Positions 2,114 through 5,734 of a stretch of 38,772 nucleotides of DNA are shown here, piece by piece. A program made the translations under genes and the position numbers. Under the pieces are notes generated by a model. It was not told the DNA's origin. It made no database searches and saw only the letters and a list, made by a program, of their open reading frames with translations. Position 1 is the stretch's first letter. Each line of letters starts with the position of its first letter. Source of the stretch: Deltaproteobacteria bacterium GWC2_42_11 (GTDB lineage Bacteria; Desulfobacterota; GWC2-55-46; UBA9637; GWC2-42-11); the NCBI GenBank assembly GCA_001797495.1, contig MGPS01000011.1, positions 1-38,772 on the forward strand. The letters run 5' to 3'.

Positions 2114-3223
2114 TCAAGTGTTTTTTACGGTGTTTTCAAAACCATGTGCCATTATCCTGCATGTCCCGTCCATTGAAACCATGCACGGTCCGTACGGTCT
2201 GTCAGGGCGGCACCCCTTACCGAATATCGGACACCCTGTCGGATTGATCTTCCCTATCATTACCAGATGGCATGAGCAGTCAGGGTTTATGTCCAGCGGT
2301 CGGGGAATTTCGTGCATATTCTCCGGGAAAAACTTCCTGAAGGCATCATGTTCTGAAAACCTATCTTTCAGTTTAAGCCCCGAACGGGGTATCCTGCCTA
2401 TACCGCGCCAGTAAGCAGGAACAATATCAAATACATCTCCGATAACCTTTTGTGCCTTTTTATTCCCTTCAGGTGCAACAGCCCGTTCATACGCATTTTC
2501 GCAAAGCGGCACCCCATTGTTTATTTGTCTCAATATCTTCAGGACCCCTGTCAATACATCCGCTGGCTCAAAACCTGCTGTCACAACCGGCATCCTGTAT
2601 GCCTCAGGAAAGATATAATACTCTTTCAAACCCATTACAGTTGTTACATGACCGGGTATAAGAAAACCATCTATATGAAGGTCTCCGATACCTAAAAGAA
2701 ATTCCATTACAGGCGGGATAAGTCTATGGGATGTCAGAATGCTTAAATTAGGAGGCAGTCCTCTCTGAACAAGTGCTGCAACACCGCACGCAGTTGTCTC
2801 AAAACCAACTGCAAATAATACGACCTCTTTTTCAGGGTTATTATATGCAATCTTTAGTGAGTCAAATGGACTATACACAGCCCTTATATCAGCGCCATCT
2901 GCCTTTGCATCAGCGAGGCTCCCCTTTGCCGTGGGCACCCGCATCATATCGCCGAATGCTGCAACAATTGCACTATGCTCTAAAGCCAGTTTAATGGCAC
3001 GGCTTATATCAGTCTCAGGGCATACACAGACAGGACATCCGGGTCCTGCTATGACTTCAACATCTTCAGGCAGGAGTTCCCTGAGTCCGTATCTGCTTAT
3101 TGTGTTTTCATGGGTGCCGCAGACATGCATTATCTTTAAAGGGCGGGCAGGTGATTCATCTCCTATCGCTAATGCGAGGTCTTTAATAACAGTTTTATCC
3201 CTGTAACGGTTTGCTGTAAGCAC
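2114..3223 (-). CDS. hypD: Hydrogenase maturation protein HypD
   Basis: HypD is the iron-sulfur scaffold which, with HypC, assembles the Fe(CN)2CO group of [NiFe]-hydrogenases in the cytoplasm. All family marks are present: the 'CGTHE' motif (Cys at about residue 35), 'GPGCPVCVCP' with three cysteines, and the C-terminal [4Fe-4S] region with 'CSCHLVMIG', 'TGCPIFGKGC', 'YGPCMVS' and 'GTC'. Length (369 aa) is normal. Possible starts are TTG 3232 and GTG 3223; GTG has a GAGG ten bases upstream and is preferred. The start overlaps the end of the CODH gene by about 29 bases out of frame, so the two are translationally coupled. No hypE, hypF, hypB or hydrogenase subunit lies in the window. Confidence 0.95.
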   Translation of the reverse strand: MLTANRYRDKTVIKDLALAIGDESPARPLKIMHVCGTHENTISRYGLRELLPEDVEVIAGPGCPVCVCPETDISRAIKLALEHSAIVAAFGDMMRVPTAKGSLADAKADGADIRAVYSPFDSLKIAYNNPEKEVVLFAVGFETTACGVAALVQRGLPPNLSILTSHRLIPPVMEFLLGIGDLHIDGFLIPGHVTTVMGLKEYYIFPEAYRMPVVTAGFEPADVLTGVLKILRQINNGVPLCENAYERAVAPEGNKKAQKVIGDVFDIVPAYWRGIGRIPRSGLKLKDRFSEHDAFRKFFPENMHEIPRPLDINPDCSCHLVMIGKINPTGCPIFGKGCRPDRPYGPCMVSMDGTCRIMAHGFENTVKNT

Positions 3224-5291
3224 CTTTTTCAAGCCTCACTATCCTCTTCAAAAATGTCGGGTCAGGTATAGAGGACAACTGCCAGTTGTTCTGCTCAAGG
3301 ATGGGATTGATTTCATCTCCCATGCCTTCGGGTATATCGTAGTTTGTCCTGACATAAAAATGGATGTCTTCTGGCAGGGTATCTTTTGCACCCCGCTTAA
3401 CGGGGGCACCCTTATAAAGTTCTATATAATTTTTGAGTTTAGTTCGTCTGCCGGATGGAGTATCATTGTGCCTCATTGTAAGTTTTGCTGCTGTATATAA
3501 TGCCTCTTCAAAGTTCTGGACAGAATACAAAAGGCATTCGGGTAATACATGTGTTTTAACCTCATTTCCTGTCCTTGCGTCTATTACTGATGTCTCCTGT
3601 TCACTTTTTACCAGATGGAGTCCATAGTATCTCCCGCGAGGACCAAATATAACAGGTATGCCCAGCCTTGCCGCGCCGACTGCTGTGGCAAATGCCTTTT
3701 GCGTAAATGCCCCCCAGAGGATAATGACAGCGCCGACCTTGTTTATTATATAGTCAGCAATCTCCTCGTAGTTGCCGTTTATTTCACGATGAGACATAAT
3801 CTTTGTTATCTTAATACATGCACCAATAAGATGTGATATTGAAACACATGAACCGAGGTTGGTAATATTCCCGCCGTCGAATATATCAGAGGTCTTTTTG
3901 AATATGCCGCCCCTTGCAGCATCAATAGATGCACATCCACCTGTAGAAACAATATAACCCCTTTTAAGAAATTCATCTGCCATATTGTGAGTAATGCCAG
4001 ACTTCAGACCCCGGACTCCAGGCTGAAAGACAAATCCTCTAGTCTCTGGTCTCAAGTCTCTGGTCTCAAGTTCATTTTTTGCCCTCTGCCCTCCTTCTTC
4101 TTCAGGACATCCGAATATCCCGACAATTCCTGGTATCTCACCCATTATAACAGACGGTGCTACACTTCTTATTTCACCATCTCTTATTGCCCCCCTGCCA
4201 ACAGGCATTTGCCATGTTTCTTGCCCCTTTTGCCCCTTGCCCCCTGACCCCGCTGAGCGGGATGCCCCTATCTTTATTACTGCCTCTGCTGCCTTGTTTT
4301 TGTCTCCTATAAACCCGCTTCTGGTTTCAATGAGGGTACGGGTGATACTCTCAAGTGGAAAACCCGAAATATCATCTAACCCCATAACAGTTTCCTCTGC
4401 TGTTGCTATGATAATGCTGCCTGACTTAACCGCTTCTTCAACAATATCAGCCCTTATGCACTGTGTATCAAGGACAACAACATCAGCAATCCCTGTTTTA
4501 ATAAACTCCAACTGCATTGACTGGCTGCCTATGATTTTAAAACCATGCCCGTGTGAGTGCCTTGAACCATCTATTGCACTGCAGCAAAGACCGCATATCT
4601 CAAAACTATTTGCTGTTTTTTTCTCTTCCAGCATGTGCAAAATATTGTGGCTCACAACAGAATTATGCCCTATAATAAGAACTACAAATTTACTGGTATC
4701 TACTTCTGCTATACCGAAATTTATAATATCTGCTGAACTCCCCTTTGGCATATTCATGGAACTTATCTGGATAATATCTGTCACCTCTGCTGCAAGGTTA
4801 TCAAGCATGCCTGCATGGAGGGTCTTGCTTACAAAATCATCCTTGTCCGCCTCACTGCCGAAACTAACACTGGATAAAAGGTGCGTCAACTGCCTTTCAA
4901 TGTACGAGATAATATCTTCCATGTCAGAAAGCACAGCAGGCTCAATGCCGCAGATAAGGGTTGTCAAAGGCGTGTTTATTGCTGACACATCACCCATATT
5001 AATGCCCCTTGTTCCGCCATACTTATTTATCATGTCCGTCAGGAGTCTTCTTGCATTTGAGGTATGCGCTGATGCGCCAATAACTGCATCAAGGAGGGCA
5101 TACCTTGCCCTGAATGAGTCCTCTGAAATACCGCATTTACCGGGATTTTCATTCAATGGTCTGCATGGACCAAGGCTGCAAAGAGAACAGGTCTTTACAG
5201 GCTTTTTAAAAACCGGTGCGTATCTCTTTAGGAGTATTAAATCCCAGTCTTTCAGGTTTAGTATGTCAGGAAAGGTTGTTCTCACTTCCAT
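3195..5291 (-). CDS. Ni-Fe carbon monoxide dehydrogenase catalytic subunit, CdhA-type, lacking the ferredoxin domain
   Basis: This 698-aa protein aligns by eye with archaeal CdhA (CODH/ACS alpha). The N-terminal cubane motif is present (C35, C38, C43, C53: CSLCSLGPC...GKCGI). The NiFe4S4 C-cluster ligands are all present: H209 (IGHN), C236/C237 (GLCC), C278 (DTQC), C395 (FGC), C453 (TGGC) and C482 (GSCVS), with the catalytic Lys K532 (TQKA). CdhA normally carries a middle domain with two 4Fe4S ferredoxin motifs before 'VGRG'; here it is absent and residues about 344-361 form a Gly/Lys/Gln-rich linker. A second extra segment of about 29 residues (403-433) lies between C395 and C453. Both segments are encoded by repeat DNA. 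The gene starts 12 bp after hypC and overlaps hypD. It probably interconverts CO and CO2, but its electron path must differ from CdhA. No cooC or acs genes are nearby. Hybrid-cluster protein was considered and does not fit. Confidence 0.9.
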   Translation of the reverse strand: MEVRTTFPDILNLKDWDLILLKRYAPVFKKPVKTCSLCSLGPCRPLNENPGKCGISEDSFRARYALLDAVIGASAHTSNARRLLTDMINKYGGTRGINMGDVSAINTPLTTLICGIEPAVLSDMEDIISYIERQLTHLLSSVSFGSEADKDDFVSKTLHAGMLDNLAAEVTDIIQISSMNMPKGSSADIINFGIAEVDTSKFVVLIIGHNSVVSHNILHMLEEKKTANSFEICGLCCSAIDGSRHSHGHGFKIIGSQSMQLEFIKTGIADVVVLDTQCIRADIVEEAVKSGSIIIATAEETVMGLDDISGFPLESITRTLIETRSGFIGDKNKAAEAVIKIGASRSAGSGGKGQKGQETWQMPVGRGAIRDGEIRSVAPSVIMGEIPGIVGIFGCPEEEGGQRAKNELETRDLRPETRGFVFQPGVRGLKSGITHNMADEFLKRGYIVSTGGCASIDAARGGIFKKTSDIFDGGNITNLGSCVSISHLIGACIKITKIMSHREINGNYEEIADYIINKVGAVIILWGAFTQKAFATAVGAARLGIPVIFGPRGRYYGLHLVKSEQETSVIDARTGNEVKTHVLPECLLYSVQNFEEALYTAAKLTMRHNDTPSGRRTKLKNYIELYKGAPVKRGAKDTLPEDIHFYVRTNYDIPEGMGDEINPILEQNNWQLSSIPDPTFLKRIVRLEKGAYSKPLQG
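3993..4085. repeat. Heptad repeat tract inside the CODH gene (second insert)
   Basis: On the plus strand, 4000-4070 reads as successive 7-mers: GACTTCA, GACCCCG, GACTCCA, GGCTGAA, AGACAAA, then AGTCTCT, GGTCTCA, AGTCTCT, GGTCTCA. The last four form a perfect 14-bp duplication. The tract is read in frame on the minus strand as extra residues between the CODH C-cluster cysteines C395 and C453. Confidence 0.75.
4209..4264. repeat. Heptad repeat plus small palindrome inside the CODH gene (first insert)
   Basis: Three TTGCCCC units (4221-4227, 4230-4236, 4237-4243) are followed by CTGACCC and the palindrome CCCGCT-G-AGCGGG (4249-4261). Translated on the minus strand this gives the low-complexity linker that stands where CdhA proteins have their ferredoxin domain. 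A very similar palindrome, CCCCGCT-A-AGCGGGG, occurs at 22824-22838 next to another heptad tract. Confidence 0.7.
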
Positions 5292-5303: not shown

Positions 5304-5489
5304 CTACCATCTGTCTGATATTTCCTCTTCTTCAATCTTACCTATTGCAATACCAGCGTGCACAAGGACATAGTCGCCCTCACTTACATCCACAAGGTCT
5401 AAAAATATCTCCCTCTTTACACCGTTTTTCTCTGCAACACCTGTCTCTCCGTTCTTTTTAATAATCTTCATCGGTATTGCCAGACACAT
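5304..5489 (-). CDS. hypC: Hydrogenase maturation chaperone HypC
   Basis: A 61-residue HypC/HybG-family protein. The N-terminus 'MCLAIP' carries the Cys2 that forms the mixed complex with HypD and binds the Fe(CN)2CO intermediate. The OB-like body follows, with the conserved 'DYVLVHAGIAIGKI'. Its length is at the short end of the family. The GGAG ribosome site is formed by the last codons of hypA, three bases before the ATG, so hypA and hypC are coupled. CooT-like Ni proteins of CODH systems also have an early Cys and are similarly small; the conserved HypC C-terminal half makes HypC the better call. Confidence 0.9.
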   Translation of the reverse strand: MCLAIPMKIIKKNGETGVAEKNGVKREIFLDLVDVSEGDYVLVHAGIAIGKIEEEEISDRW

Positions 5490-5491
5490 AA

Positions 5492-5734
5492 TTACTCCGC
5501 CTCCAGAGAGACTATGTCCAGTTCATTCCCTGAACCCTCATCAATCTCAATATCTGCACCTTCAAACAATGTCTTTTCAGATAATATCTGGAAACAGAAT
5601 GAAAGGGATGACGGCTCAATTGCTGTAAACTGTCCAATCTTGAGTCTTATCTTTGTTATCTTTTTAATATCATGCCGGAGAACCTCTTTTTTAAGTATAT
5701 CCATAAGACTTGCAGCAATTGACAGTTCGTGCAT
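5492..5734 (-). CDS. hypA: HypA-like nickel chaperone lacking the zinc-finger domain
   Basis: HypA delivers Ni to hydrogenase large subunits. The nickel-binding N-terminus Met-His-Glu (MHEL) is intact and fixes the start, although no good ribosome site is seen. The alpha/beta body 'IKKITKIRLKIGQF' and 'SLSFCFQIL' is normal. Family members are about 113-118 aa with a zinc loop of two CxxC pairs; this protein is 80 aa and runs directly from 'ADIEID' to 'GSGNELDIVSLEAE', which matches the strand after the zinc loop. About 35 residues including all four Zn cysteines are therefore missing in frame, with no frameshift. The Ni site may still work but the Zn-dependent structural switch cannot. As first gene of hypA-hypC-CODH-hypD it may serve the CODH as well as, or instead of, a hydrogenase (inference). 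Confidence 0.85.
   Translation of the reverse strand: MHELSIAASLMDILKKEVLRHDIKKITKIRLKIGQFTAIEPSSLSFCFQILSEKTLFEGADIEIDEGSGNELDIVSLEAE

Follow-up and report, generated by a model that had tools for sequence, protein, structure and literature searches.

The DNA analysed here (the window) comprises 38,772 nucleotides of contig MGPS01000011.1 from Deltaproteobacteria bacterium GWC2_42_11, and encodes a CdhA-type carbon monoxide dehydrogenase (CODH) that lacks a domain and is placed between the genes hypC and hypD. The locus raises the question of what such a shortened enzyme does among hydrogenase maturation genes, and how it came to be short.

The protein, hereafter the short CdhA, matches the NCBIfam model TIGR00314 (cdhA) in three stretches with 567.5 bits, below the curated cut-off of this equivalog (781.3 bits). 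The best solved relatives are 8riu_A (1.2e-122) and 3cf4_A (6.7e-107). The structure alignments stop near query residues 326-340 and restart near 353-360, and the ~100 skipped target residues hold two 4Fe4S clusters (E and F). Query residues 340 and 360 correspond to residues 373 and 473 of 8riu, ~19 residues standing in place of ~100. When full-length CdhAs are aligned with the short forms by MAFFT, the eight cysteines of the E/F clusters are all placed within this gap; the corresponding columns of the short forms are empty save for a few aligned linker letters, none of them Cys. The original prediction, made from the sequence of the window, had described the middle domain as absent and replaced by a linker at residues 344-361, with the CdhA sense resuming at VGRG (residues 364-367), and is borne out on each of these points. 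The two D-cluster positions carry no Cys in any of the 12 short forms (V32 and S36 in the window protein), a loss that the prediction had overlooked, as it had the hyp gene surroundings.

The C-cluster ligands H209, C237 (of the C236/C237 pair), C278, C395, C453 and C482, together with the catalytic H76 and K532, are invariant in the 11 aligned members, and the C-cluster columns are conserved with the full CdhAs as well. The ligands were assigned from the alignment and the signature table of Inoue et al. (PMC6344411), not from coordinates. With these residues and the B-cluster (N-terminal cubane) cysteines all present, the enzyme should be able to hold the Ni-Fe-S centre, as had been proposed. 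A sixth ligand might seem to be missing at the GAC/TGC positions around residues 521-540; this was ruled out, since cysteines in this region vary among the full CdhAs too and the five C-cluster Cys columns are invariant. The AF2 model built on a 25-sequence alignment (pLDDT 84.8, pTM 0.90), which supersedes a shallow model with a pLDDT of 61, shows a confident fold with a TM score of 0.87 to both 8riu_A and 3cf4_A, the latter being the M. barkeri CdhA with which the original prediction had suggested a superposition. The pLDDT falls below 50 only at the two inserts and at both ends of the chain. The coordinates of all features are collected in Table 1.

Table 1. Features of the short CdhA locus (positions in the window).
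Feature	Position	Strand	Evidence and remarks
hypD	2114..3232	-	TTG start; overlaps the end of the short CdhA gene by 38 nt; PF01924, 1.6e-131
Short CdhA, clade A Ni-CODH without D-, E- and F-cluster	3195..5291	-	698 aa, ATG start; TIGR00314, PF03063, AF2 model
C-cluster ligand span	3846..4667	-	H209 4665-4667, C237 4581-4583, C278 4458-4460, C395 4107-4109, C453 3933-3935, C482 3846-3848
Second repeat-filled insert (residues 400-429)	4005..4094	-	14-nt tandem; predicted disordered
Linker (residues 344-361) replacing the E/F ferredoxin domain	4209..4262	-	TTGCCCC units and palindrome; low pLDDT at 348-353
B-cluster C35, C38, C43, C53 and D-cluster positions V32, S36 (no Cys)	5133..5189	-	alignment with full CdhAs; B-cluster Cys invariant in 11 members
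hypC	5304..5489	-	12 bases upstream of the short CdhA gene; PF01455, 3.5e-22
hypA, 80 aa, without zinc-finger part	5492..5734	-	PF01155 matches only at positions 1-66 of 112

Among the 63 genomes of the class that were searched, the short form is present in 11 genomes of one order (two families; the copy in G201 is a fragment) and in G196, which belongs to a different family. It is the sole CODH-like match within the order of the window. A single-sequence scan of genome_contigs gave no matches; the alignment-based scan gave 9 loci, with one new contig, L057 (genome G205), labelled Thermodesulfovibrionia. No more short forms were found in the phylum of the window (395 genomes), nor in the phylum (296) or the class (231) of G205, and the family is rare and narrow. 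Those relatives that have names are MAGs carrying the label Deltaproteobacteria or Thermodesulfovibrionia, and several came from groundwater. The 12 short forms with full-length ORFs make up a single clade (support 100/100), with pairwise dN/dS of 0.10-0.20 over ungapped columns; the short form is thus an old monophyletic family under purifying selection. An assembly error joining two fragments, which the original prediction had kept in mind, is unlikely, because the same short form occurs in other genomes under such selection. Among the other CdhA-like proteins encountered, several divergent paralogues of ~830-840 aa per genome are present in family f42 (L013-L016; G075, G108, G039, G137), and CdhA-like proteins of more than 900 aa in G077 and G041 (L018, L019) have an extra cysteine-rich N-terminus and no N-terminal B-cluster Cys motif at the aligned place.

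Pfam matches confirm the order hypA-hypC-short CdhA-hypD in the window. The arrangement hypC-short CdhA-hypD is found again in G197 (L036), G196 (L045) and G205 (L057), and in three of the four genomes with this order the CdhA and hypD ORFs overlap; opposite-strand ORFs lie inside the block in G197 (one small) and G196 (two). The block of G196 adjoins two [NiFe] hydrogenases, and that of G205 closes the series hydrogenase large subunit, cytochrome b, peptidase, hypA, hypB, hypF, hypC, short CdhA, hypD. A hypC gene lies two genes upstream of the short CdhA in G054, and a hydrogenase large subunit adjoins it in G199. Within the stretch read, no hyp or hydrogenase gene is found near the short CdhA in G198, G203, G147, G200, G202 and G204; all of these except G203 have hypD elsewhere in the genome. 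In family f2 (L038-L044), where the hyp genes are missing, the short CdhA is flanked by a recurring block of UbiA-like prenyltransferase, radical-SAM-like and AhpD-like genes, named by reading of their sequences only. The place of the CdhA gene among hyp genes recurs in independent lineages, namely the window genome (G000), G197, G196, G205 and the full-length sisters G469 and G746, but not in all members.

Two further features of the hyp genes were noted. HypA has 80-81 aa and no zinc-finger part in three genomes of family f1 (the window, L036:7832-8074 and L066:5061-5306), from which the domain seems, on sequence, to have been cleanly excised; the CxxC pairs are retained in G196, G205 and G195. 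In L057:8928-11032, hypE and hypD converge, their ends overlapping by 4 nt, an unusual arrangement for a hyp operon.

The link to hypD is not confined to the short form. G469 and G746, which belong to the same class as G205, encode a full-length CdhA with the E/F domain and without the D-cluster cysteines; hypD comes directly after it, with overlaps of 4 and 20 nt, respectively. These CdhAs are the sister of the short clade (99/99), and both share the C-terminal IPDPTLL motif. Since a sister that still has the ferredoxin domain also directly precedes hypD, the link is older than the domain loss. The HypD proteins of the CdhA-hypD genomes make up a clade separate from the remaining HypDs of the class, and genomes with long and with short CdhA part deeply within it, as they do for CdhA itself. 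The marks MHVCGTHEN and GPGCPVCVC are present in 12 of 12 of these proteins and in 1 of 31 others, in a sample of related sequences drawn from one class and three other genomes; the Fisher value for this difference takes no account of kinship. The exception is G195 (L115), an 88% complete genome with hypA-hypC-hypD, the same type of HypD and no short CdhA, which would serve well as a natural control, provided that the genome is sufficiently complete.

ACS (PF03598) is missing throughout the 12 class genomes that carry the short form; in G205 it is present on a different contig, and it is also present in the two genomes with full CdhAs that were tested. With no ACS in the genome (12 class genomes) or in the operon (G205), the short CdhA does not qualify as an ACDS alpha subunit, and its role is not carbon fixation. 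All 12 class genomes with the short form have [NiFe] hydrogenases, G000 having a four-subunit operon elsewhere in the genome. The cyanide branch is there too: of the 13 short-form genomes searched for HypF, 12 have it. Since most genomes of the class have both hypD and hydrogenase, the mere presence of either alongside the short CdhA carries no information. The hydrogenase large subunits of L048 and L049 (G199:C187, G204:C76) and of G202:C87 have two in-frame TGA codons each, possibly for two selenocysteines.

In hydrogenase assembly, one CO is needed per active site. In aerobes this CO is made by HypX from formyl-THF, and the anaerobic source is unknown (PMC12134894). CO2 has been proposed, on other grounds than those given here, as the precursor, in a CO2-reductase-like step on HypCD for which CODH chemistry was cited (PMC4161419). 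We consider it slightly more probable than otherwise that the short CdhA is a dedicated low-flux partner of HypC and HypD, a candidate maker of the CO ligand of [NiFe] hydrogenases from CO2 without oxygen. After loading of Ni into the C-cluster, the B- and C-clusters would hold low-potential electrons, and CO2 would be slowly reduced to CO, one molecule per hydrogenase. The CO would be handed over to the iron that HypC and HypD hold between them, which would also receive the two cyanides from HypE/HypF. The reductant could dock near the B-cluster, and could be the [4Fe-4S] cluster of HypD itself or a ferredoxin. The CODH activity, its direction, the delivery to HypCD and the electron donor are what we infer in this scheme. 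As the need for CO would be tiny and stoichiometric, the D, E and F electron wires would be dispensable; a slow stoichiometric step with delivery to HypCD fits the intact C-cluster, the missing outward wiring and the shared operon.

The intact ligands, the clade-wide loss of the D-, E- and F-clusters, the hyp linkage, the separate HypD clade, the absence of ACS, the presence of HypF and hydrogenases, and the dN/dS values all fit the synthesis of the CO ligand. Counted against it are the six genomes with no hyp genes nearby, the genome G195, the very low potential needed for CO2 reduction, the purely hypothetical donor, and labelling in R. eutropha, by which added CO2 was excluded in that organism as the direct source of the CO ligand (PMC12134894). 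Most hydrogenase makers, including other class members and E. coli, have no such gene, and the short CdhA is therefore at best one of several solutions.

The hyp linkage would be equally explained if the short CdhA aided hydrogenase maturation non-catalytically, as a scaffold, a store of Ni or Fe-S, or a sensor of redox state or CO. The loss of the electron wires is compatible with such a protein, and CODHs of clades C and D have been proposed as auxiliary (PMC13056359). This is unlikely, however, as all catalytic and C-cluster residues are kept in 11 of 11 aligned members, unlike in A-4, A-6 and clades C and D (PMC6344411). The complete C-cluster and catalytic residues would also serve an enzyme that oxidises CO, either passing the electrons to a co-encoded hydrogenase or removing CO that inhibits it. 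Operons of clade E and F CODHs with hydrogenases work in this way (PMC13056359), and hydrogenase genes lie near the short CdhA in G196, G205 and G199. We regard CO oxidation as improbable, since the outward electron clusters D, E and F are all lost, no CooF-like ferredoxin partner was seen beside the short CdhA, and it is hypC and hypD, not the hydrogenase subunits, that are conserved next to it.

The two inserts bear on the origin of the short form. The linker DNA consists, as described in the original prediction, of TTGCCCC units (three, at 4221-4243) and a small palindrome, CCCGCTGAGCGGG. Its tandem unit matches 12 positions in the genome, against 0 for a reversed-pattern control, and is thus a dispersed genome-wide repeat. 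The 14-nt tandem of the second insert has no further exact match elsewhere in the genome. In the relatives, the loops lie at the same places and contain repeats of different sequence, with no repeat in the linkers of G196 and G205. The domain was thus not deleted by repeats, which the loops tolerate; different repeats entered the disordered loops later, separately in different genomes. That the short form was made by repeat spread in the window genome, or is a decaying gene, is very improbable despite the filling of both loops and the genome-wide linker unit, given the single clade of 12 genomes (two with repeat-free linkers), the dN/dS of 0.10-0.20 and the confidently predicted fold with disorder at the inserts. 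An old family of relatives with the short form is also what the original prediction had named as an outcome that would refute repeat-driven loss. The suggestion that the electron path was remade by repeat spread, domain loss or both is accordingly retained for the domain loss, by which the electron route must differ, and dropped for repeat spread as its cause. The most economical order of events, as read from the sequences, would be loss of the D-cluster and coupling to hypD, then loss of the ferredoxin domain, with the repeats last. There is about an even chance, in our estimate, that this is a CODH lineage specialised for hydrogenase cofactor synthesis, an anaerobic CO-ligand synthase acting with HypC and HypD, whose full-length CdhA ancestor was coupled to hypD before the outward electron clusters were shed.

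The cluster signature of the short CdhA (C-cluster His and five Cys, catalytic His/Lys, no D- and no E/F-cluster cysteines) is that of the known structural group A-3 of Inoue et al. (2019, PMC6344411; representative OGW06734), as judged from signature and description. This group likewise belongs to clade A, has a complete C-cluster and acid-base residues, and lacks the D- and E/F-clusters; it occurs in bacteria only and was not found with ACS. The text describing A-3 names no hyp context, whereas the short CdhA is linked to hypC and hypD; only E-1, F-1 and F-2 are named there as coexisting with [NiFe] hydrogenase catalytic subunits (PMC6344411). A 2026 survey of gene contexts ties clade A to one-carbon genes and finds association with hydrogenases almost only in clades E and F (PMC13056359). 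The CODH-hydrogenase operons of those clades, e.g. that of C. hydrogenoformans CODH-I, likewise place a Ni-CODH gene close to genes for [NiFe] hydrogenase and for maturation, but their CODHs are of the CooS type, with D-clusters, and are tied to the hydrogenase complex, while the short CdhA is inserted between hypC and hypD. With the ACDS CdhAs (M. barkeri 3CF4, M. thermophila 9C0Q, Ca. Ethanoperedens 8RIU) it shares the fold (TM 0.85-0.87) and the B- and C-clusters, but not the ferredoxin domain, the D-cluster or the ACS partner. HypX would do the same job, supplying CO to HypCD, by means of an unrelated protein and chemistry, as an aerobic formyl-THF decarbonylase (PMC12134894). A literature search covering the main texts of openly readable papers found none in which a CODH is connected with HypD or with the CO ligand, and both the hyp link and the proposed role appear to be new.

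A CODH gene between hypC and hypD offers a concrete, testable candidate for the long-sought anaerobic source of CO, and the proposed role suggests a function for the orphan group A-3. If true, anaerobes would for the first time have a specific candidate enzyme for the CO ligand, and the short CdhA would be an enzyme of carbon fixation reduced to a tool for building a cofactor.
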